Source: Agapetus fuscipes
Lineage: Eukaryota > Arthropoda > Insecta > Trichoptera > Glossosomatidae
Direction: 5' to 3'
Length of the DNA: 64,000 nt
Assembly (NCBI GenBank): GCA_951799405.1
Contig: OX637339.1
Location: 20,398,001 to 20,462,000 of the forward strand
The notes below the pieces were generated by a model, which saw nothing but the letters and a program-made list of their open reading frames with translations, did not search any database and was not told the origin of the DNA. Position numbers and translations under genes: made by a program. Of this stretch, positions 2,261 to 63,025 are shown piece by piece (within the stretch, counting starts at the first letter, position 1; the number at the start of each line of letters is the position of its first letter).

Positions 2261-2666
2261 TCAATTATAAAGTGGCGTGCTCAGACATAGTTCTGTATCT
2301 GTTGGCATTGCAGCTTTACGCTAATGTAATTATCTTTCCTAGGAGCTCCTGTGTATACAGCTGTCCCTCCGTAATCTCACAGGTAGGAGACCGAGGTGGT
2401 GTCAGATTGTTAAAAATGGCTGCTTTTCTGTGATGTATTGGAGCGAGATGAGCTGAGCATTATTATGTATACAGTAACGTATTGTATTAATAAACATTAA
2501 CCTCCAGGGTGCCAGAAGGCGGATCCACGCTCATAGTGCTTATTGCAATTATTTTCATAACTAAAAATATACTTCGTTTACATTACAAAGCTTCCCTACT
2601 CTTCGACATTTATGTACCTGCCTGGCTTACGTGTCCATTCATGATAATGACATTACGCTGCCTTTG

Positions 2667-2928
2667 TTCCTTGACTTATAGGTTGTTATGCGGCTGACCA
2701 CCCATACTGTAAAAAAATTGGTTCACTTTGCCAATGTCACCCCTGTTTCAGGGAAGGACGGCAAGAGTTGCAAGGCTTATGTTCATTTGAGATTGGGTTT
2801 TTATATTGTAGGTCCACATGCGGCATGTGTTAGCGCGAAATTATACATATCTGCTTGTGGGAATGCATTTAATATAAATCTTAAATGATATATATCTTTG
2901 CAGCTTAGATTAGATTAGATTAGATTAG
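2667..2928 (+). repeat. SINE B copy, full length
   Basis: Starts TTCCTTGACTTATAGGTTG; ends in a short (TTAGA)n run. The family has a conserved body (CACCCCTGTTTCAGGGAAGG, GGTCCACATGCGGCATGTG). No clear tRNA boxes, so its origin is uncertain. Confidence 0.8.
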
Positions 2929-3487
2929 TTCTTGTTTGTCGTATGGACCATTAAGCTAATTTTACATGAGCAATGTTTGAATGTGTACTGGACCAATGTG
3001 TCTTATGAAAACAGGAAATTGATTTAAAAAAAAATTAAAACAACTCTCACATTATCGAGTTTTACGGTTTTTCTTAGCTCAGATTGTGCAGAATTTGATT
3101 CTTAAGACAACTGCATCAAAAAGTCATATTTGACAAAATTGGTCTATACGGTAAACAAGAACTGAGGGAGCGATATGTCTATTTTTAGAACACAATGTTT
3201 TTTTAGAAATCATAATATTATGCGGCAGTGCAGTAAATTCGTCACTCATGACGTTTTACTAAATTGTGCATTAAAAAAAGTTGATTTCACTGTCTTTTGA
3301 GATGAAAAACGGATATGAGATATGTTTTGTATCTTTAGATATATTTCAAATCAAAACCAAGAGTTTGGTAGCTGGATAATGGTTAAAAATCACCGGCACA
3401 CTAGAGGTTAAATACTTGGGACAATTTAAAACACACAATGAGGTTAACAATATTTAATTTATGGACAGATACATATTAGGGATCTTG

Positions 3488-3797
3488 GACCGGTCCGTAG
3501 TCCAGTGGCAACACTTCGGACTCGTAAATGGAAGGTTGTGGATTCGAATCCCGGCGGAGCACAAAAAATATACCATTTATATTTCCAAATGTGCTCTTCG
3601 CTGGGTTGAAAAAATCATAAACCTTTACCAAAGACCGGTCACTGAAAGGTCCATCCAACCTTACAACAACTGGGTCTTGCTTCAGAATTCGCGCTTTCTA
3701 CAGTGACGACCAAGCTCGCACAGCGCTCTTGAGGTGTGATACACACAAAAACAGCGCTCACCAAATAAATCATCTTAATATTATTATTATTATTAGG
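3488..3797 (+). repeat. SINE A copy, near full length
   Basis: Head GGTCCGTAGTCCAGTGG (box A-like) and GGATTCGAATCCC (box B), body, and an (ATT)n tail. A good reference copy for the family. Confidence 0.85.
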
Positions 3798-3969
3798 GCC
3801 TGTACAATGTTGGCCTAAGATTTCAAAAAATCCCGTTGCACCACGGAGGATTTTGGATTTCAAAGTGTTGGATTGCCGAGGGTCAGCTGTGTTATGTAAT
3901 AACAATAATGTAATCCTCGGGTACTGTGTATATAGCTGTTAAGGTATTTATACATACATACATAAGTAG

Positions 3970-4055
3970 CCAAGTCACAAGTTGAGAGGGCCCTTGAGGT
4001 GTGACACACACAAAAACGGCGCTCTTCAATTATGTGTACATTAAATAAATTATCC
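3970..4055 (+). repeat. SINE A 3' fragment
   Basis: GAGGGCCCTTGAGGTGTGAC and ACACAAAAACGGCGCTC match the 3' part of SINE A. An AT dinucleotide run follows (4056-4102). Confidence 0.6.
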
Positions 4056-4480
4056 TTATATATATTATATATATATATATATAAGTGTATATGTATATAT
4101 GTGTTGAAGGTCAAACCGTCCCTGAGCGAGAGGACACGCATGTTCACAGACAATGCTAAGACAAGTGATCTTTTGGATCTATGATTGTACATTTGAAATA
4201 AACACCAAAATGGAAAATCATTTCTGACACCCTTGCTATGAATCAAACCTTGGTTCCTGACTTAGAATTCAAGCATTCTACAAGTAAAACTGATGCGCTA
4301 TTCTGCTAAATTCCTTACTACTTTAAAGCGACGAGCTGGCGATTTGTGTCCGAAACAAGTCAGGAGTGCTAGCGCTTGCGAAAGAACTCTATAGATAAAA
4401 AACACTGTACATCTTATTTTTGGAGATGAATCACCAGCTCGTCGCCTTGGGTCGTAAGGAATTTAGCAGAATAGTGCTTC

Positions 4481-4715
4481 TGGTCGGTAGTCTAGTGTTT
4501 AATGCTGCAGACTCGTAAACAATAGGTAGTGAGTTTGTTTCCCTGCATAGCAAAAAAATATCATTTAACCTTTCAAATATGCTCTTTGCTGTGTTGAAAA
4601 ATTCATATACATTTACTGGCTGGTCACAGGTTTACAGATGCTTGCAACATTTCTGCTGACTAGTGCCTAACAAGTATGCAGAGGGCTCATGAGGTGTGAT
4701 GCACGCAGAAACAGC
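4481..4715 (+). repeat. SINE A copy, diverged
   Basis: GGTCGGTAGTCTAGTG head, then the body up to GCAGAGGGCTCATGAGGTGTG. Confidence 0.7.
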
Positions 4716-5096
4716 GCTATTTTATTCTGTAACTGAGCTTTTATAATATACCTGACGGAACTGTCCTAGCACTGGGAGTTCTCATAGCGTTGTACGTGAA
4801 CATGGGTGTGATCTTGTCTCCTGACTGCGCTAGATCAATGAGCCTTATTGTTTCAGTTCTGACGAAGGAAATGTAAAGAGGAAACACCATATCATACAGG
4901 AAGAAGTCTGAAAAAAATGTACAGTATTATTATATGATACAAACCATGACGTAGAGAAGAACAGGTTTCACAACATGTAGAAGTCGTGTCAGACGTCATC
5001 AGGAGACGTGTCTTCTATGAAAATTACTTTGAATTTTTTCCTAAACCTCTGTTACATCACTACAATACTGAATTGTCAATTACGAGTATCATCAAC

Positions 5097-5340
5097 CTGT
5101 CCGTAGTCTAGTGGTTTACGCTACTAACTGATAATCGGAAGGTTGTGTGTTTAATTCCCAGCGGAGCACAAAAAAAAAAAAATTGCAAGTATGCTCCTCG
5201 CTGGGTTGAAAATTAATCTGCCTTTACCCAAAGATCGATCACCAAAGGTCCATCTGGCTTTACAGCAGTTGGGTCTTGCTTGAAAATTGGAAGCTCGTGA
5301 GGTGTGATTCACACAAAAACAGAGCTCACCAAATAAAGGA
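5097..5340 (+). repeat. SINE A copy followed by SINE C
   Basis: GTCCGTAGTCTAGTGG head, body shortened near CTCGTGAGGTGTGATTC, then directly a SINE C. Confidence 0.75.
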
Positions 5341-5347
5341 TCTGTGA

Positions 5348-5620
5348 ATGAAGGTTGATATCTCAATTAATAGAATGCTTGCATTCCATGCCGTGAGCAA
5401 ATGTTCGATCTCAAAGGTTTACTCAGCATCAATTCACAAGAAATAAGAATCAGCCCCCCCCGGAAGCTAGGAAACCCCCACTTCAACTGAAAGTGGTTGG
5501 TGTGAGGCCGGCCCCCTTACCTGTAAAAATAAATAGGTCCCGAAGCGCCACATGCGACCCCTTCGGGGATAACGCAGGCAAGAAGTTACACTATATGTGT
5601 AGCTTAGTTGTGTTTTTTTT
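5348..5620 (+). repeat. SINE C copy (tRNA-derived)
   Basis: AGGTTGATATCTCAATTAATAG head with TTCGATCTC, then CACTTCAACTGAAAGTGGTTGG and CCCCTTCGGGGATAACGCAGG hairpin motifs. Confidence 0.75.
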
Positions 5621-6161
5621 ATTGTCCTATTTTGAGAGCAGACTTCTTCCTGTATGAAGCAGCATGTAAGTGGGAAGACCTCGTAGTAATTAGATTGTAT
5701 GGAACGGTTTGTGATAATGCTGAATCAATTGGAATTCCAAATTCCCGAAGGAAGATTGTTTATAATGTGTTTAATCAATTTTAGCCTGAGATCTAAAGTT
5801 TTGTATATTTTTTGTTAAAATTAATTTTAAGACTATCTTTACAATTTAACATCATATTCATTTTCCAAGTACAAAGATTACTAAGTGAGGGAGTAACTTA
5901 TTATTCCTAATTTTGTATGAGAAGTCTTTGTGGCGCCGTTTGATTTTCATACATATTTGGGATACTCACTTACTTTCTTATTTGGTGCAAGCTCGTACTT
6001 GGGGGGGAGAAAACAAACATAATATAATATTAGCTTTTGGATATCCTGATTTTTGTAATTTATTTTAACAAACTGATAAAAATTGTAATGACATTAAATG
6101 ATGCAACCATCTGTTGGAGAATAGTGAAAGCTTCATTTGAATAGTTCAATTTTCATGTACA

Positions 6162-53739: not shown

Positions 53740-54211
53740 TGTTATGTAAATATAAATATTGAAATAAGTATGGGTAGTTATAGTTATAAGAATCCTCAAA
53801 AGTATTGGTAGGTAAGATCGATAATTATGTATAAGTGTAGAATTCTCTAGGCTAAGTAGGTACTTGTTATAATTATAGGAATTCTGTATTACATTTGTAG
53901 GTAGGATTTTGGTTGTGTCTAGGTAGTACGTGAAACATCGAGAAGTAATAATTACTCTGGAACCGTCTGGCGACTTTAGTTCTAGATCATACTGCTCTAC
54001 AGAGTATAAAGGTGCGAATGGCCTGCAGAGCGGGCCAGTATCATAGAGACTTACAAACACATCGAAGTCATCTGATCAGTGAACCAAAACCAAGTGGAAT
54101 AATCGAGAAAGTAGTGTGAAAATAAATTTTGTAACTGTGTAAAATAAATAACTATTGAAGAAGACCTGTGTATTTTTAATTTGAAGACAATTGAACCCTA
54201 ATTTCGTAACA
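53740..54211 (+). repeat. 5' LTR of the gypsy element
   Basis: 472 bp, from TGTTATG to CGTAACA with a 5-bp terminal inverted repeat TGTTA/TAACA. It contains a possible TATA-like box (GAGTATAAAG near 54000) followed by an AGT-type initiator region. Confidence 0.95.
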
Positions 54212-54888
54212 ATTGGCGTCAGGTGCGGAATTGTCAAGAAAAATTAAGATCTTCTGTCTAAAAATAAATAAAATAAATTAAATAGTGTTAAAATGAACTT
54301 TATTCAAATTGAACTTTGTGTGAACTGACTTTTGTGAAAACAAGTGTTTAAATAAATTTTTGTTAAAAGAAAAGACGCAAAAGCAAGTTGCTTATAAATT
54401 CTGGAACATCATATGGAACATAATTCTGGACATAATTCTGGACATAACATAATGACTATTTTACCGCATTGAGAAAGTCATCAAATTGGACCATAGTTTT
54501 TTTATTATTGTGTGTGATTAAAAAAATAAAATAAATAAATAAAAATCTTGAAAAATATTACAAAAGAACGTTCCAGATTCATCGAGAAAAAAGTTTTTGA
54601 ATAACTATCCTTTGTTTACAAGTGTGTGAATGTACATTAAGTACCTACCTGTGTGTTTGAAAGATTTGAGACGAAATAAATAATTATGTACTATCAGACA
54701 TTATTATGTAAAAAAATATTGGTGAATTAAAAATAAATATTAAAAGACAGTACCTACTCACAGTGTAATCAGATAAATTATTATTTTGCTAAAGTACGTA
54801 TTCAAAACAGCTATATATATAAAACTCAAAACTTGTATTAAATAAATTTGAAAATATTTTTGTTTTGACGTAAATTTTGAAAAAAAAA
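54212..54888 (+). other. Untranslated leader of the gypsy element
   Basis: About 680 bp of AT-rich sequence between the 5' LTR and gag, with no open frame of note. It should hold the packaging signal. Short direct repeats of CTGGACATAATT occur near 54420-54450. Confidence 0.6.
54214..54231 (+). other. Primer-binding site
   Basis: TGGCGTCAGGTGCGGAAT begins two bases after the 5' LTR. TGG at this spot matches the complement of a tRNA CCA end. I cannot tell which tRNA it matches. Confidence 0.7.
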
Positions 54889-56256
54889 ATGGCAACTAAA
54901 GTGAACGTCAAGGACCTCAAAGTCACTGAGCTTAAAAATGAGCTTCTGGAGAGGGACCTGGAGACCTCAGGAGGAAAGGCAGCCTTACAAGCACGCCTCA
55001 TAGAGGCCTTGGAACAGTCAGGCGAAGACCCGGCATATTTTGTCATGGCGTCTGGAGGGGACCGCGCCTTGGACGAGCTAAATATCAGCATCAACAGTAA
55101 CCTGACAGGACTGAAGACTGAGATGGCTGACAACGCCAAGACCCTGGAGGAGAAGATGGCTGACAACGCCAAGACCATGGAGGAGAAGATGACCAGTAAC
55201 CTGACAGGACTGAAAGTGGAGATGGCTGACAACGCCAAGACCCTGAAGGAGGACCTGGCAACCATGGAGGAGAAGATGACCAGCAACCTGACCGGGCTGG
55301 AGGAGAAGATGACTGGGCTGGAGGAAAAGATGACCAGCAACCTAGCCGGGCTGGAGAAGAAAGTGGCAGAAAGCTCGCGAGCAATGTCGGAGATTGAGGC
55401 CCGTGTGGCAAGCCTGGAGGATCGTCTGCGTGCCGAGCTGGCTGACAAGTGCCAGATGGAGTCCACCAGAATATCCCCCAAAGGCGGCCTTCACGACGAG
55501 ACCGACCAGGGATGCTCAACTCCAACCAGGGTCACTAGAGGGGATGACGACCCTTCGCTGTCGAAGCACAACCTTCCGACCTTCGACGGGAAGACGTCGT
55601 GGGAGGAGTATTTGACCCTCTTTGAGACGGCAGCCATGATGGGAGCCTGGAGCCAGCAGAAGAAGGCTTCGGTTCTCAGCCTGTCGCTCCGAGGAGACGC
55701 TCTCAGGGTTCTGCAGGCCATACCCCTGGACAACCGTGGTGACTTTGGGCAGCTGAAGCAGCGCTTGGATATGCGCTATGGCCACAAGTGCCTGGAGCAG
55801 CTGTACAAGTCGCAGCTGAACACAAGGGTGCAGAAGCCCAACGAGAGCCTCCAGGAGTTTGAAATGGACATCGCCCGCCTGGTACGAGACGCTTACCCGA
55901 CAGCCTCCGACGACATCTGTGAGAGCTTGGCAGTGGACAAGTTCCTAAATGGATTGCGGGAATGGGAGACGCAACAAGCCGTAAAACTGGCCCATCCCAA
56001 GGCTTTGAACGAGGCGCTCAGCCAAGCTCTCGAGTTTGAGGCTGTCAAACAGTCCATCAGGGGCCACGCCAGGGTTCGTGCAGTCGAGGCAGAGGAGGTC
56101 AAGCTACCTACAACCGAGGAGCTAATTGAAAAAGTGCTGGAACGTCTGAGACCTCGAAGACGAGACCCACGCTGCTGGAACTGCGGACAGCTGGGCCACC
56201 TTAGCACCAAGTGTCCCAAGCCTCAGAAACCCAGAAAACAGGCTGCGGAAAACTAG
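54889..56256 (+). CDS. gag: Gag polyprotein of the gypsy element
   Basis: Structural capsid/nucleocapsid protein, 455 aa from the first ATG (54889, in an A-rich context). Residues about 9-45 match a SAP motif (KVTELKNELLERDLETSGGK...LQARLIEALE), a DNA-binding helix pair uncommon at the start of a Gag. Residues about 60-175 are a coiled-coil made of imperfect 11-residue units (MADNAKTLEEK, MTSNLTGLEEK). Then comes a retrotransposon Gag core (WEEYLTLFETAAMMGAW ... LRGDALRVL ... ESLQEFEMDIARLV). Near the C-terminus a CCHC zinc knuckle (CWNCGQLGHLSTKC, C-x2-C-x4-H-x4-C) binds RNA. It ends at TAG 56254-56256 and overlaps the pol frame. Confidence 0.92.
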   Translation: MATKVNVKDLKVTELKNELLERDLETSGGKAALQARLIEALEQSGEDPAYFVMASGGDRALDELNISINSNLTGLKTEMADNAKTLEEKMADNAKTMEEKMTSNLTGLKVEMADNAKTLKEDLATMEEKMTSNLTGLEEKMTGLEEKMTSNLAGLEKKVAESSRAMSEIEARVASLEDRLRAELADKCQMESTRISPKGGLHDETDQGCSTPTRVTRGDDDPSLSKHNLPTFDGKTSWEEYLTLFETAAMMGAWSQQKKASVLSLSLRGDALRVLQAIPLDNRGDFGQLKQRLDMRYGHKCLEQLYKSQLNTRVQKPNESLQEFEMDIARLVRDAYPTASDDICESLAVDKFLNGLREWETQQAVKLAHPKALNEALSQALEFEAVKQSIRGHARVRAVEAEEVKLPTTEELIEKVLERLRPRRRDPRCWNCGQLGHLSTKCPKPQKPRKQAAEN

Positions 56257-59200
56257 AAAGGGTTAATGGGAAGGGGCAACCGTTGACCCACGCTGGAGAG
56301 GCCCTGAAATCTGCTGCTACTGTCGCAACCGTGAGAGGAAAAGCCAGCAGCATTTTTATCAATGGCATAATAGATGGAGTAACTCGTGAACTACTGGTGG
56401 ACACGGGAGCAACCAGGACAATTCTGAGACGCGACATAGTGGCACGAGGTAAGCAGATTGCACCAACAAAGTGGTCTCTGCACACCGCCACGGGAGAGTC
56501 AGCACAGGTGTATGGGGAGACGATTGCCACCTTCCAAATTGGCAGCACCACTTTTGATCATCGGACGTTGGTGGCCAACATTGAAGAAGACGTTATATTG
56601 GGAATGGACATACTGGACAGATTTGGGTGCAGTTTAAATTTAAAGAAAGGGTCCATTAAAATTGGAAATGAAGAAGTCATCCTGCAAAGACGGAAAGAAC
56701 TGGCTGCACGTGTTATCCTAGCCAAGAATACCGAAGTGAAGGGGCGATCCGAGATGATAGTGAGTGCCCGCCTGGATTCCAGTAGTACAAATGACCAAAT
56801 CTGTATGATAGAACCGGAGAACATGGACAATGTTAACAAAGGAGTCATGGTGGCAAGAACAGTGATTCGCGCAAAGGAGACCATTCCTGTCAAGATCATG
56901 AATGTGAACAGCTACCCAGTTAAAATGAATGAAGGTTTTGTTTTGGGCAGATGTGAGAGGATAACTTCCATTGTGCAACAGATGACAAACATGTCATGCG
57001 AAGGAAACAAATTGTCAACACAATTGGAAGCCCTGGTCCACGACGCTTCCCAAGGTCTAACCGAGGAAAACAAACGGAGAGTGAGGAGTTTGATCTGCCG
57101 CTACCAGAATATTTTCGAGGACTCTAATGGCCGTCTGGGAAGAACCAAGGTAGTGCGACATAGCATAGACACCGGAGAAGCGAGACCAATAAAACAGGCT
57201 CCAAGAAGACTTCCCTTTGCAAAGCGGGAAGAAGCTGACAAGATCATCAAAGACATGAGCAAGGATGGCATCATAGAACCATCAAGTAGCCCTTGGACAT
57301 CCCCGGTGGTACTGGTGAAAAAGAAGGATGGTACCACGAGATTTTGTGTGGACTACAGACTGCTCAACGATGTTACGAAAAAGGATAGTTACCCTCTGCC
57401 AAGGATTGACGACACCTTGGACACATTGGCAGGATGCACCATTTTTTCCACATTGGACCTGAAAAGTGGCTACTGGCAAGTTGAATTGGATGCCAAAGAT
57501 AAGGAGAAAACTGCATTCTCGACTGGATCTGGACTTTGGCAGTTCACCGTGATGCCATTTGGCTTATGCAATGCCCCCGCCACGTTTGAAAGGCTGATGG
57601 AGAATGTGCTGCGAGGACTGTCATGGGAAACCTGCCTGGTATACTTGGATGACATAATCATCCTGGGAAAGGACTTCAACCATCAGTTGAGAAATCTGGA
57701 GCAAGTTTTCGGGCGACTACAAGACGCTGGACTGAAGCTCAACCCGAAAAAGTGTAACCTGTTCAAGAAACAAGTAAATTACCTGGGACACATAGTTTCT
57801 CAACGTGGAGTTGAAGTTGACCCTGCCAAAATCAAGGCAGTAAGAGACTGGCCCGTGCTGAAGGACAAACATGAAACTAGGAGTTTCCTGGGGCTGTGCA
57901 CTTATTACAGGAGGTTTGTGCCAAGATTTGCGGACATTGCAAAACCGCTCACCAAGCTTACGGAAGAAAACACTCGCTTCCATTGGAGTGATTCCTGCGC
58001 ACAAGCATTTGAAGAGCTTAAGGGAAGATTAACAAGTGCCCCCATCTTGAGCTACCCACGAAAAGATGGAAAGTTCATCCTGGATACCGACGCTAGTAAT
58101 GTGGGGATAGGAGGCGTCCTTTCCCAAATACAGGATGGGCATGAGACTGTTCTGGGTTACTTCAGTAAAGTGCTTTCCAAGCCAGAACGAAATTATTGCG
58201 TGACCAGACGAGAGCTTCTTGCCGTGATAAAATCAGTGGAACACTTCCGCAAATACTTGTACGGGAGAAAATTCACACTACGGACTGATCATGCTGCACT
58301 GGTTTGGCTTCTGAAATTCAAAAACCCAGAAGGGCAAGTGGCTAGATGGATTGAAAGGCTCCAGGAGTATGATTATGACTCCGAACATAGACCTGGCACG
58401 CTTCATCGAAATGCGGATGCATTATCCAGACGACCATGCGCCAGTGACTGCAAACATTGCAGCAAGATGGAGGACAAGGTAGCAATTGTCCAAAGGACGA
58501 CCACCGAAGATGAGGACTGGCAAGATGAAAAATTGGCGCAAGACCAACTGAATGATCCGGACTTGAAGTATGTGATGGAATGGGCGCGAGAAGGAGAAAG
58601 GCCAACCTGGGAAAAACTCGCCCCCTTATCACCAACTGTCAAGGCTTATTGGGCTCAATGGGGATCCATAGTGATAGAAGGAGGGTTTCTGAAACGAAAG
58701 ATCGAGAAGGAAGACGGCACACTTAGAAGAAAGCAAACCCTCGTTCCGAGGAGCCGAGTACCGGAAATCCTTGGACTGCTGCATGGAGGAACTTCTGGAG
58801 GACATCTAGGCGTTAAGAAGACGCTGGAGAAAGTGAAAGAGCGATTTTACTGGATCAACTGCAGCGAAGACGTCAAAGATTGGTGTCGAAAATGTGTAAC
58901 CTGTGCAACGGCCAATGGACCGCAAAGGAAAAGGCGAGCACCAATGCGTCAGTACAATGTTGGCAGCCCCTTTGAAAGAATTGCCATCGACATAGCTGGC
59001 CCATTTCCTACAACTGAGAAGGGTAACAAGTACATCATGGTGGTGATGGATTACTTCAGCAAGTGGGTGGAAGCTTACTCAATCCCTAACCAAGAGGCCG
59101 TAACCGTGACTGAAGTTCTAGTTACCGAATTTATCAGCAGGTTTGGCGTACCCCTGGAATTACATTCTGATCAGGGAAGGAACTTTGAAGCTGCTATCTT

Positions 59201-60449
59201 CCAGCAAATGTGTGAGCGGCTAGGGATCTACAAGACCAGGACCACTGCGCTACATCCACAGTCTGATGGAATGGTGGAAAGGATGAACCGTACCGTGGGG
59301 AGGTACTTAGCCAAAGTAGTGTCCAGCCATCAGCGGGACTGGGACCGACATCTGCCTTTGTTCTTATTGGCTTACCGGTCGGCTGTTCAGGAAACGACGA
59401 AGAAGACTCCCAGCAGCATACTGTTTGATCTCAAATTTGGCTGCAAACCAGGTGAAGACCTAGCCGGAGAAGACTATGTGACAGACCTTCGCAGGAGGCT
59501 GGATGACATCCATGATCAGGTCCGCATGAACATCGGGGAAGCCAGCGATCAAATGAAGGAGCGCTATGACACCAGAGCTGACAGCATGGGGTACAAAGCT
59601 GGTGACTGGGTGTGGCTTTTTGACCCCAAGAGGCGCCAAGGATACTGTCCGAAACTTCAGCGTTCCTGGGACGGGCCGTACGAGATCTTGGAGCGCATCA
59701 ACGATGTGGTCTACCGCATAAAAAAGAGACCAAACGGAAAACCAAGGGTCGTGCACTACAATCGCCTCTCACCATACCTAGGCGATAATGATGACCAACC
59801 AGCCCAAAAAGTACGACAGTGCGTCGCATCCGAAAGATCACCAGCCTTTGAGACGTTTTGGGAGAACGCGAAGGCAGGGCAGAAGTTTCGCCATGGAGTG
59901 ACCACAGAAGTCCACAAGGACTTATTTGAGGTCACTAGGGACCACACACTGGCATGCAGTGTACCGGAAGATCTAGATATGTCTAGAGGAATTGCACGGG
60001 TCTTCCGATACAAATTCGGAGAACCGCAACCCTCGAGCAGCCCGCAAGGAAGAGCTCTGAGACTACCGAAGGGGCGTCAACAAGCATACTGCCTGGTTGT
60101 CCCGGATTCCAGCAACCTGGAAGAGGACTACAAGGCATTGTGGGACGGCCTTGTTGAGCTGCGTGACTACATGTTGGAGGATCAGCAGGCGCGTCTGGCA
60201 ATACCGAAGATGGGTGGCGGCCGCGCTAATCGAGACTGGCGGATAATCCGGAGTATGATTGAAGCAGTGTTCTCGGGAGTCGGCATCAGCGTCATGGTGT
60301 GCTGCGAGCAAGCGCAGCCGAGAGCCAGTGGGGAGAAATCCGTGGACTGCCACTTCTTCCTGACCACAGGGTGTCGACGTGGATCAGCATGCCCCTACCT
60401 ACACAGAGTCAAGACTGTTCCGGGACGAAACAGTCTAGGTGGGGGGTAG
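56211..60449 (+). CDS. pol: Pol polyprotein with macro-like and CCCH C-terminal domains
   Basis: Open frame of about 1412 codons in the -1 frame relative to gag. It has no ATG at its start (GTG at 56211), so it is probably made by frameshifting. Domains by position: protease DTGA (about 56400), reverse transcriptase with YLDD (57642-57653), RNase H DTDAS (about 58085), integrase HHCC (58780-58915), integrase D-D-E core (IDIAGPF 58985, HSDQGRNFE 59164, VERMN 59275) and a GPY module (about 59666-59780). Beyond the usual Pol end lies about 210 residues more. 59892-60310 matches a macro domain of the OARD1/TARG1 type (DLFEVTRDHTLA, MSRGIARVFRYKFG, LAIPKMGGG...DW, IEAVFSGVGISVMV). It is followed by a CCCH finger (C-x7-C-x5-C-x3-H, about 60345-60405). 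No internal stops. Confidence 0.92.
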   Translation: MSQASETQKTGCGKLERVNGKGQPLTHAGEALKSAATVATVRGKASSIFINGIIDGVTRELLVDTGATRTILRRDIVARGKQIAPTKWSLHTATGESAQVYGETIATFQIGSTTFDHRTLVANIEEDVILGMDILDRFGCSLNLKKGSIKIGNEEVILQRRKELAARVILAKNTEVKGRSEMIVSARLDSSSTNDQICMIEPENMDNVNKGVMVARTVIRAKETIPVKIMNVNSYPVKMNEGFVLGRCERITSIVQQMTNMSCEGNKLSTQLEALVHDASQGLTEENKRRVRSLICRYQNIFEDSNGRLGRTKVVRHSIDTGEARPIKQAPRRLPFAKREEADKIIKDMSKDGIIEPSSSPWTSPVVLVKKKDGTTRFCVDYRLLNDVTKKDSYPLPRIDDTLDTLAGCTIFSTLDLKSGYWQVELDAKDKEKTAFSTGSGLWQFTVMPFGLCNAPATFERLMENVLRGLSWETCLVYLDDIIILGKDFNHQLRNLEQVFGRLQDAGLKLNPKKCNLFKKQVNYLGHIVSQRGVEVDPAKIKAVRDWPVLKDKHETRSFLGLCTYYRRFVPRFADIAKPLTKLTEENTRFHWSDSCAQAFEELKGRLTSAPILSYPRKDGKFILDTDASNVGIGGVLSQIQDGHETVLGYFSKVLSKPERNYCVTRRELLAVIKSVEHFRKYLYGRKFTLRTDHAALVWLLKFKNPEGQVARWIERLQEYDYDSEHRPGTLHRNADALSRRPCASDCKHCSKMEDKVAIVQRTTTEDEDWQDEKLAQDQLNDPDLKYVMEWAREGERPTWEKLAPLSPTVKAYWAQWGSIVIEGGFLKRKIEKEDGTLRRKQTLVPRSRVPEILGLLHGGTSGGHLGVKKTLEKVKERFYWINCSEDVKDWCRKCVTCATANGPQRKRRAPMRQYNVGSPFERIAIDIAGPFPTTEKGNKYIMVVMDYFSKWVEAYSIPNQEAVTVTEVLVTEFISRFGVPLELHSDQGRNFEAAIFQQMCERLGIYKTRTTALHPQSDGMVERMNRTVGRYLAKVVSSHQRDWDRHLPLFLLAYRSAVQETTKKTPSSILFDLKFGCKPGEDLAGEDYVTDLRRRLDDIHDQVRMNIGEASDQMKERYDTRADSMGYKAGDWVWLFDPKRRQGYCPKLQRSWDGPYEILERINDVVYRIKKRPNGKPRVVHYNRLSPYLGDNDDQPAQKVRQCVASERSPAFETFWENAKAGQKFRHGVTTEVHKDLFEVTRDHTLACSVPEDLDMSRGIARVFRYKFGEPQPSSSPQGRALRLPKGRQQAYCLVVPDSSNLEEDYKALWDGLVELRDYMLEDQQARLAIPKMGGGRANRDWRIIRSMIEAVFSGVGISVMVCCEQAQPRASGEKSVDCHFFLTTGCRRGSACPYLHRVKTVPGRNSLGGG
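56246..56256 (+). promoter_or_regulatory. Candidate -1 ribosomal frameshift site
   Basis: In gag frame the last codons read GCG GAA AAC TAG. G-GAA-AAC is a near-consensus slippery heptamer, with YYY=AAA and Z=C but a non-uniform XXX, and the gag stop follows at once. Slipping back one base here enters the pol frame. A downstream stem was not worked out. Confidence 0.5.
59892..60310 (+). other. Macro-like domain coding segment within pol
   Basis: About 140 residues following the integrase C-terminus. The order of motifs is the family order for OARD1/TARG1-like macro domains: a strand with DLF, the Leu-Ala-x-x-V phosphate-loop region, M-x-x-GIA-x-x-F-x-x-x-FG, a Tyr-rich strand (QAYCLVV), the helix YKALWDGLVELRDYM, then LAIPKMGGG with a later DW, and a closing strand ISVMV. 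From memory of the family, the catalytic Lys (after the Tyr strand) and the Asp (in the IGCGLD-type loop) appear replaced (VVPD and GGGRA), so it may bind ADP-ribose or RNA rather than hydrolyse. Confidence 0.75.
60438..60449 (+). other. Polypurine tract
   Basis: A purine-rich run, AGGTGGGGGGTAG, directly precedes the 3' LTR, as needed to prime plus-strand DNA synthesis. It overlaps the last codons of pol. Confidence 0.65.
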
Positions 60450-60921
60450 TGTTATGTAAATATAAATATTGAAATAAGTATGGGTAGTTATAGTTATAAG
60501 AATCCTCAAAAGTATTGGTAGGTAAGATCGATAATTATGTATAAGTGTAGAATTCTCTAGGCTAAGTAGGTACTTGTTATAATTATAGGAATTCTGTATT
60601 ACATTTGTAGGTAGGATTTTGGTTGTGTCTAGGTAGTACGTGAAACATCGAGAAGTAATAATTACTCTGGAACCGTCTGGCGACTTTAGTTTTAGATCAT
60701 ACTGCTCTACAGAGTATAAAGGTGCGAATGGCCTGCAGAGCGGGCCAGTATCATAGAGACTTACAAACACATCGAAGTCATCTGATCAGTGAACCAAAAC
60801 CAAGTGGAATAATCGAGAAAGTAGTGTGAAAATAAATTTTGTAACTGTGTAAAATAAATAACTATTGAAGAAGACCTGTGTATTTTTAATTTGAAGACAA
60901 TTGAACCCTAATTTCGTAACA
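60450..60921 (+). repeat. 3' LTR of the gypsy element
   Basis: Same length as the 5' LTR and identical except for one transition (60692). The pol stop codon lies directly at its upstream border. Confidence 0.95.
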
Positions 60922-61008
60922 GTATATTTTTTGTGCTCCGCCGGGATTCGAACTCACAACCCTCCATTTAGAGTCCGAAGTGTTACCACTGAACTACGGA
61001 CCGTACGG
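60922..61008 (-). repeat. SINE A, 5' (tRNA-like) part, split by the gypsy insertion
   Basis: Minus-strand tRNA-like head with box B (GGATTCGAACT on the plus strand reading) and box A (CCACTGAACTACGGACC). It completes the copy interrupted at 53739. Confidence 0.85.
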
Positions 61009-61291
61009 ACGTATTTTTTGTTATTACTAATCTCTTTTCTCTAATCCCTCCATCACCTCCGACATGTTGATTAAACTAGGCGCAGCTGCCACCAGTGCGG
61101 TGCTCTCTCATTACGTCATCAATGGATTGCTATACAGTTCCACCCTGTTGGAGGGTTTCAGGTTGTTTGTAACCAATAGGGGGCGAGGTCATGATCTGTG
61201 TCATGTACCAATGAGGCGCACCGATGTCATCCTTTAACTCGGATTTGCAAACTCATTAACGAGTCAAAAATTTACACACATCAATGTAACT

Positions 61292-61538
61292 TGACCGGTC
61301 TGTAGTCCAGTGGCAACACTTCGGACTTGTAAATGGAAGGTTGTGGTTTCGAATCTGAAAAAATATCTGTACTGTACTCTGAAAAATATGCCATTTATAT
61401 TTTCAAATTTTCTCTTCGCTAGGTTGAAAAATTCAGAAAACCTTTACCGAAGACCGGTCACTAAAGGTGCATCCAGCCTTACAGCAACTGGGTCTTGCTT
61501 GAGTACTGGTGCTTTGTAGCGACGACCAAGCTCGTAAA
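61292..61538 (+). repeat. SINE A copy
   Basis: GACCGGTCTGTAGTCCAGTGG head, body, ending ACGACCAAGCTCGTAAA like the A part of the A-C composites. Confidence 0.75.
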
Positions 61539-62149
61539 TACCTCTGCGCCACTACAACCATCTTTCCAGGCCCTGATGAGCCATCCCTGGAGGTGCCCCA
61601 GCCAATGATATCCACGGACTTTGACTGACCGGACAGCATCAGCGTCTGTGACCTCTAGCTCAGAAAAACCGGCATTATTTTTTTATTTTCTTTGTCCATT
61701 TTTTATACAAAGACGTCATATTGTAGATTGATAAGCAAATAGTTGAGGAGATTTTTTGTCTGGATATTTTCCTCGTGGTTTTGTAGTTTATACTAAATAT
61801 CCCCAGTAAATTCCCCACCGTCTCGTAATTAGAAATAATGTATGAAAGCTTAATCACTCACTAGGGGTGCTGGCGTATTTTCGATACATTTTTCTATTTA
61901 CGTTGTGGTAATTAATGACGCGATTGTTTATACTAGGGTTACTATAATTTTAATATTGTCTTTTTGTGGGACTGGCCAATCCATCCACTTAATAGGTCTT
62001 TGGTCTCTCACACTTACAGCGCTAGTCAAAGTCATTGCTGTGACTTCCTCAGGGGCGTGCATCCCATACAGGCACATGCGCCTAATAGGTAGGCAATATA
62101 TGGTAAAAAACGCGTTTAAGCTTGATATTCAGATTTCAAAAAGTCAAGG
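61539..62149. other. No gene seen
   Basis: A GC-richer patch (61540-61670) might be an old element fragment. The rest is AT-rich with one dispersed palindromic element. Confidence 0.35.
61805..61915. repeat. Dispersed palindromic element, diverged copy
   Basis: Core CACTCACTAGGGGTGCTGGCG followed by TATTTTCGATACATTT, as in the 50.6-kb copy, with degenerate ends. Confidence 0.45.
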
Positions 62150-62403
62150 TTCCTTGACTTATATGTTGGTATGCGGCTGACCACCCAGACTGTGAAAAAA
62201 TGGTTCACTTTGCCTATGTCACCCTGTCTCAGGGAAGGACGGCAAGAGTTGCAGGGCTTATGTTTATTTGAGATGGGTTCTTATAATGTAGGTCCACATG
62301 CGGCATGTGTTAGCGCGAAATTATACATGTCTGCTTGTGGGAATGCATTTAATGTAAATCTTAAATGGTATATATCCTTGCAGCTTAGATTAGATTAGAT
62401 TAG
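62150..62403 (+). repeat. SINE B copy followed by a LINE fragment
   Basis: TTCCTTGACTTATATGTTGG to (TTAGA)n, directly adjoining the LINE at 62404. Confidence 0.8.
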
Positions 62404-63025
62404 AAGGTAACTTGGAATAGGGCGTGTTAGGGAAAGCAAGTGGTCGGTGCAATAGGAAGAATAGCAAAGAACAAGCGATTGACGATGGATCTGAGAATGG
62501 CTGTACACAATGGTATATTTTTACCGACTTTGATGTATGGAAGTGAAGCATGGACAGTGAATGATAGCGAAATAAGTAAAGTATGTACGGTGGAAATGAA
62601 GCATTTGAGAAGCATGACGGGAAAAACTCTGAAGGATAGAGTTAGGGATGAATGGGTAAAGAAAGAATGTCATTTGAAAGAGAATGAATGTGAAAGTTAA
62701 GGTACAAAATAATGTGATGAGATGGTTTGGGCATGTGGAAAGAATGAATGATGATAGACTGACAAAGTATGTATACAAAGAAAGTGTGAAAGAAAAAAGA
62801 GTGAAGGGACGACTGAGAAAAGTATGGAATGATCAGATTGAGGAGATTGTGAAAGAATGGGATATACAAAGTGAGCGTAAAAGAAGAAAATGCATGAAAA
62901 ATGTGATGGATATGAATGAATTGAAAGAGGTGATGTCAGGATAGGAAAAAATGGAGGCAGCTCTGCAGAGGCTCTGGCCACCCCTATCGGAATGGCGACA
63001 GAGTAACAGCCATTACAGCTATAAA
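62404..63025 (+). pseudogene. LINE C-terminal fragment with a frameshift
   Basis: Frame 62440-62700 (NGIFLPTLMYGSEAWTVNDSEIS) and then frame 62684-62944 (VMRWFGHVERMNDDRLTKYVY) belong together, joined by a frameshift near 62690. The tail CTCTGGCCACCCCTATCGGAATGGCGACAGAGTAAC is shared with 8636-8690. Confidence 0.7.

Follow-up and report, generated by a model that had tools for sequence, protein, structure and literature searches.

In the LTR retrotransposon read here, the Pol frame runs on for about 220 codons past the integrase GPY-type module and its stop abuts the 3′ LTR. What this tail encodes, and what use it could be to the element, is the question raised by the locus. A preliminary description of the window (the whole stretch of DNA analysed, 64,000 nt) had read in it a macro domain like that of TARG1 (OARD1, C6orf130), followed by a CCCH zinc finger.

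Organization of the element

The features of a Ty3/gypsy element, LTRs, Gag and a Pol of the order PR-RT-RH-IN, are all present (Table 1), and the assignment was made on domain order and Pfam families rather than on an RT tree with named references. The two LTRs differ at 1 of 472 positions. In Gag, Pfam recognized SAP (E 3.9e-08), Retrotrans_gag (3.2e-05) and zf-CCHC (1.7e-05); the SAP domain lies at the Gag start (54907-55014) and in-frame repeats come next. A candidate frameshift site is the heptanucleotide GGAAAAC (56247-56253): Gag ends right after it at TAG (56254-56256), and the −1 frame, that of Pol, is open here. At its other end the Pol frame is G-rich, which is likely to represent a polypurine tract within the coding sequence. 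No env of the kind that errantiviruses have follows pol in this element, the abutting stop and 3′ LTR leaving no room for one.

Table 1. Features of the element in window coordinates.
Feature	Position	Strand	Remarks
5′ LTR	53740..54211	+	472 bp, GTAT just upstream
Gag frame	54877..56256	+	SAP, repeated coiled-coil, Retrotrans_gag, CCHC knuckle
Pol open frame	56211..60449	+	−1 relative to Gag; PR, RT, RNase H, IN, macro, CCCH
Integrase C-terminal GPY-type module	59673..59774	+	Pfam PF22938 at 2.9e-12, Pol residues 1155-1188
Linker	59775..59894	+	low conservation; two sister-family sequences share 0.38-0.44 identity with it
Macro domain, TARG1/OARD1-type	59895..60311	+	Pro (60102-60104) and Ala (60225-60227) at the family's Lys and Asp
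CCCH zinc finger, C-x7-C-x5-C-x3-H	60348..60404	+	Pfam zf-CCCH 2.2e-04
G-rich end of the Pol frame, including the stop	60437..60449	+	abuts the 3′ LTR
3′ LTR	60450..60921	+	GTAT just downstream

The Pol frame of the window copy has 1414 codons, as against 1422 in the commonest copy, and, aligned with two sister-family sequences (described below), its integrase C-terminal part shows 8 gap columns (window about 59425). Thus the window copy seems to be 8 codons short in this region; longer open frames than its own exist elsewhere in the genome. Directly downstream of the 3′ LTR, 16 of the 18 readable flanks among 20 copies (L001-L020) have four bases that fit RTAY. A tRNA-like repeat, recognized by eye, adjoins the 3′ end of the element (60922-61010). 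A similar repeat was seen by eye in one of the 18 readable flanks (L001), and targeting of tRNA genes was dropped as an idea, ARAGORN finding no tRNA gene in 60000-62500. The arthropod-type telomere repeat (CCTAA)n begins one of three contig ends examined, which makes an insect-like host likely.

Identity of the Pol tail

Against PDB sequences, phmmer matched residues 31-162 of the tail to human TARG1/C6orf130 at E 7e-11, and the tail of a diverged sister-family element (L063) matched TARG1 at 2.5e-19, which upholds the macro domain of the preliminary description. The Pfam Macro model did not detect the window domain. More weakly, the tail matched a phage family that is annotated as phosphatase (8.9e-09) and, at a score well short of the cut-off, NCBIfam DarG (1.3e-05), and phage proteins reached 4e-9 by tblastn; a profile built from the window and three phage sequences retrieved 1404 proteins at E ≤0.001 among 3084 candidates. 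The CCCH finger announced after the macro domain also held: zf-CCCH gave 21.5 bits (cut-off 20.5) for the last 229 residues and 17.5 in the whole protein, and the spacing is identical in the sister family, where the profile score is 17.0 bits, below the cut-off. The E-values, the diverged sister family and the CCCH spacing together rule out a chance match or a frame artefact for the tail.

AlphaFold2, run on the window sequence and 86 further rows (P0002 and 85 TARG1-like relatives; 87 rows in all), predicted a confident macro fold. Its top structural match by Foldseek and VIA-align was TARG1, and viral macro domains were among the matches; in the same prediction no confident structure was obtained for the CCCH part. 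A control with three rows, all from retroelements, gave neither a confident model nor a match. The macro-fold model therefore depends on the TARG1 rows, and it is the sequence evidence that counts.

No relative of the Pol end was found in the protein collection at E 0.01 among 480 candidates, while the macro part alone (11 candidates) retrieved one protein of 99% identity, from a 996-base record. Viral contigs yielded no relatives of the tail, in a search that may omit records close to the window's genome. Since the eukaryote content of these collections is uncertain, such absences say little.

Catalytic residues and pocket

The catalytic Lys and Asp, which we take to be K84 and D125 of human TARG1, are each present in 79 of 85 relatives. 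They had been suspected of being substituted, and indeed Pro and Ala occupy these columns in the window, Arg and Ala in the sister family. Accordingly, hydrolysis by the TARG1 mechanism is unlikely in the window lineage, and we file the domain as TARG1-derived, not as a TARG1 enzyme. Other positions have changed as well. In the first pocket loop, His-Cys (85/85 each in the relatives) became Cys-Ser and Gly-Ala (85/85 and 79/85) became Ser-Arg, and a near-invariant Asn of the TARG1 family is Cys. With several near-invariant residues changed besides Lys and Asp, the pocket may have no ligand or a different one.

The two loops most alike between window and sister families are presumably those that line the ADP-ribose pocket in TARG1. 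There, 21 of 28 positions are identical, while the rest of the macro domain has 50 of 110 (Fisher p 0.006). This is weak functional evidence, because the same loops are the best conserved ones in TARG1 proteins generally.

Age of the window family and constraint on the tail

Copies were sought in the window's own genome (618 Mb, 148 contigs), the one eukaryotic genome searched. The tail (211 residues) is 100% identical in all 150 copies scored, the best of 1409 candidates, the unscored remainder of which includes other families; by hand count, 123 of these 150 belong to frames no shorter than 1400 codons. At the DNA level, the tails of 20 copies fetched from among them show 0 or 1 differences from the window. 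Similarly, a search with the RT segment gave 651 candidates, and the 40 scored were all 100% identical. The window family is thus very young and large.

The sister family (L063, L064, L066) has the same Pol with macro domain and CCCH finger. It occupies at least 57 places at 84-100% identity, 10 of the 57 with an internal stop (hand count; best 150 scored). The segment is hence present in related elements with open pol frames, in the sister family as well as in copies of the window's own family. Neither of the two outcomes that would have overturned the preliminary description, a lack of any structural match to macro domains or an absence from all related elements, was observed. Compared with the window, L063 and L064 are 87-94% identical in RT-RH, 80% in IN and 50-51% in the macro domain, the macro part evolving faster than RT and IN.

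Selection on the segment could be gauged between the two families, L063 and L064 being compared in full and L066 for two segments only; no dS was obtained where pS exceeded 0.745, and resamples that lacked a dS were left out of the bootstrap. Over 137 macro codons, window and L063 share an amino-acid identity of 0.52, with pN (0.33) far under pS (0.73). The resulting macro dN/dS is 0.16 (bootstrap 0.12-0.35) against L063, a rough ratio as dS is saturated, and 0.185 (0.13-0.36) against L064, where dS is saturated too. For L063 the RT gave 0.012 and the linker 0.21. Within young families, in contrast, the differences are too few for purifying selection to be measured.

A Gag-macro derivative without integrase

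In the search that gave the 57 sister-family places, the other 93 of the best 150 scored match at 50-51% and lie in frames of fewer than 830 codons; 84 of the 93 have frames of 700-830 codons (hand count), all but 4 places being judged by frame length alone. In one of them, L073, the LTRs are 99.8% alike and GTAT stands on either side; its single ORF of 795 codons is composed of Gag, a new coiled coil, the macro domain and the CCCH finger. L073 lacks what corresponds to positions 2466-6051 of the window element and with it the whole of PR, RT, RNase H and IN. The same layout was found in all four copies read, the three others having 775-792 codons; the Gag repeat following SAP varies among the four.

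The coiled coil between Gag and macro (L073:2619-3011) matches the Pfam myosin tail at 4.5e-12 and, weakly, Myosin-10 in the PDB (8e-4), which makes a captured piece of host myosin (non-muscle tail-like) plausible. This segment has 237 candidates in the genome, and the 40 scored are at least 99% alike.

In the macro domain (137 codons), L073 and the window show 0 synonymous and 2 non-synonymous differences, whereas the linker is strongly diverged and the LTRs are 3.6-3.8% apart. The near-identity of the block against the divergence of its surroundings indicates that macro and CCCH recently moved between L073 and the window family by recombination, an exchange that co-packaged RNAs would allow. 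Owing to this recent exchange, the block could be a hitchhiker in L073. Derivative tails differ from one another by 0 synonymous and 1-4 non-synonymous codons per pair (4 copies), which reflects youth and not constraint.

Other macro domains in the same genome

The Pfam Macro model marked 7 places in the genome: 3 host TARG1-like exons, the element L027, and L024, L025 and L026, which stand outside the group assignments used here. The host TARG1-like gene carries an N-terminal extension (L071:2606-2974 and 3939-4775, minus strand) and has a first exon. Second exons like that of L071 also occur elsewhere on contig C31 and on C52; on C52 no first exon lies beside it in the 7 kb read.

The element L027 is of gypsy type and carries its macro domain (L027:1450-1869) between RNase H and integrase. 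A search with this domain gave 77 matches among 150 scored places, including 9 that we call group A, the host exons, the sister family and a further set, group C. In group A (L061, L062 and L027, 3 of 9 places read) the TARG1-like domain lies between RNase H and IN; in L061 (positions 3972-4376) it matches TARG1 at E 1.3e-22. Catalytic Lys and Asp are kept in all three places read of the nine. For the single pair L061/L062, macro dN/dS was 0.091 (0.05-0.18) and that of IN 0.082, where the bootstrap used 239 of 300 resamples for macro and 298 of 300 for IN, and RT-RH yielded no dS. By this measure the group A domain is constrained like integrase. It is probably still a hydrolase, and is a better candidate for an active one than the window family. 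In this respect the preliminary description was incomplete: besides the window family, other lineages with macro domains share the genome, and one of them retains the catalytic residues in the copies read.

Group C (L065, L067, L068) has a degenerate domain at the RNase H-IN position (L065:3674-4204). In a BLAST comparison of 34 sequences this domain resembled that of group A; against PDB sequences it gave no match at E 10. A baculovirus F-like env follows pol, with Pfam Baculo_F at 2e-43 in L062 and 1.6e-41 in the env frame of L067, the sole env tested of groups A and C, respectively. An errantivirus-like env is therefore found in both groups, in these two frames.

Window and group A are 43-46% identical in RT-RH and 31-33% in IN, which separates them as lineages. 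The different positions of the domain in Pol suggest two capture events, though the trees are compatible with either one or two: a single origin of both macro placements had an AU p of 0.26, and grouping of the element macro domains with host TARG1-like rows 0.19-0.27, so that neither was rejected. The tree behind these values contained neither C_L065, a long branch with a degenerate domain, nor two rows of phage type.

What the tail may do

The reading we favour, with a probability of roughly 45%, takes the captured TARG1-type macro domain and CCCH finger for a particle-borne, non-hydrolysing binder of ADP-ribose. A Ty3/gypsy lineage would have acquired the two as an in-frame C-terminal extension of Gag-Pol, occupying the place where env would otherwise stand. 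The module would travel with the particle or ribonucleoprotein; its macro pocket may hold ADP-ribose, or an ADP-ribosylated protein or nucleic-acid end, without hydrolysing it, and its finger may hold RNA. The particle could thereby attach to, or shield, ADP-ribosylated targets of the host. Binding rather than hydrolysis is favoured by the loss of Lys and Asp together with the conservation of the pocket loops, and a role in the particle or ribonucleoprotein by the Gag-macro derivative without integrase. The module would then not be tied to integrase function.

The same derivative bears on the proposal that the macro domain tethers the pre-integration complex to ADP-ribosylated chromatin, as a chromodomain would. 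The domain does sit directly after the GPY-type module, where chromoviruses have their chromodomain, and lost catalytic residues would suit a reader; yet an integrase-less derivative retains the module on Gag, and insertion sites prefer a short sequence (RTAY, 16/18). We regard such an integrase-linked reader as unlikely. Chromatin targeting, put forward in the preliminary description, is weakened in the version that makes it the sole role. Nor does it seem probable that the tail is a counter-defence enzyme, removing or masking ADP-ribose put by host PARPs on retroelement components. Macro domains are tools of RNA viruses against PARP-based defence, and the structural matches of the window domain include viral ones; moreover, group A keeps Lys and Asp in the places read (3 of 9) and its domain is constrained like integrase. 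The window family, however, is without both residues, which makes TARG1-mechanism hydrolysis unlikely there. Finally, a former enzyme might by now be a structural or RNA-binding spacer, with the CCCH finger and a changed macro surface binding element RNA or Gag. Several near-invariant pocket residues are changed in the window domain, and the strongly degenerate RNase H-IN domain of group C indicates that decay without loss of the segment happens. But conservation between window and sister families is highest in the pocket loops, and we hold this last explanation to be quite unlikely.

Apart from the favoured particle-borne binder, we tentatively consider, and with some doubt, that ADP-ribose handling is a recurrent and selected trait of insect Ty3/gypsy elements, taken up by at least two lineages at different places in Pol (a reader after integrase, an active hydrolase between RNase H and integrase), with a non-autonomous parasite of the first that would have kept Gag plus macro-CCCH as its sole coding capacity. 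If true, this would place ADP-ribosylation in the conflict between host and retroelement in insects. Constrained TARG1-type domains in Gag-Pol, with the catalytic residues kept in one group, make a restraint of insect retroelements by ADP-ribosylation testable with purified domains, and the Gag-macro derivative is a natural domain-deletion experiment, setting dispensable parts of the element against those still carried.

Comparison with known systems

Our literature search, with most subscription papers and preprints outside its scope, found no Ty3/gypsy element whose Pol or Gag contains a macro domain. Capture of a macro domain by a retroelement is, however, already known: according to a passage in PMC4977317 (citing Basta et al. 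2009), endogenous retroviral sequences of ray-finned fish occasionally carry additional ORFs for CNPase or macro domain proteins. These teleost epsilon-like endogenous retroviruses are likewise reverse-transcribing elements with a captured macro domain, but there it stands in a separate additional ORF, whereas it is in frame with Pol in the window element and with Gag in the derivative. From TARG1/OARD1 (C6orf130) itself, the window domain differs in being part of a Pol or Gag protein together with a CCCH finger, in having Pro (Arg in the sister family) and Ala for Lys and Asp, and in other near-invariant residues.

Chromoviruses carry a chromodomain for methylated histone after the integrase GPY module. 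Both they and the window element thus have a reader-type domain in this position, a macro domain with CCCH finger instead of a chromodomain in our case; but the window-type module is also found without integrase. In non-primate lentiviruses a dUTPase lies between RNase H and integrase. Groups A and C likewise have an extra domain at the RNase H-IN junction, which is however a macro domain and not a dUTPase, in a gypsy-type element. The TR-GAG elements of plants are non-autonomous LTR elements with Gag only, in need of another element's enzymes. The derivative is Gag-only in the same sense, but its Gag is fused to a myosin-tail-like coiled coil, the macro domain and the CCCH finger.
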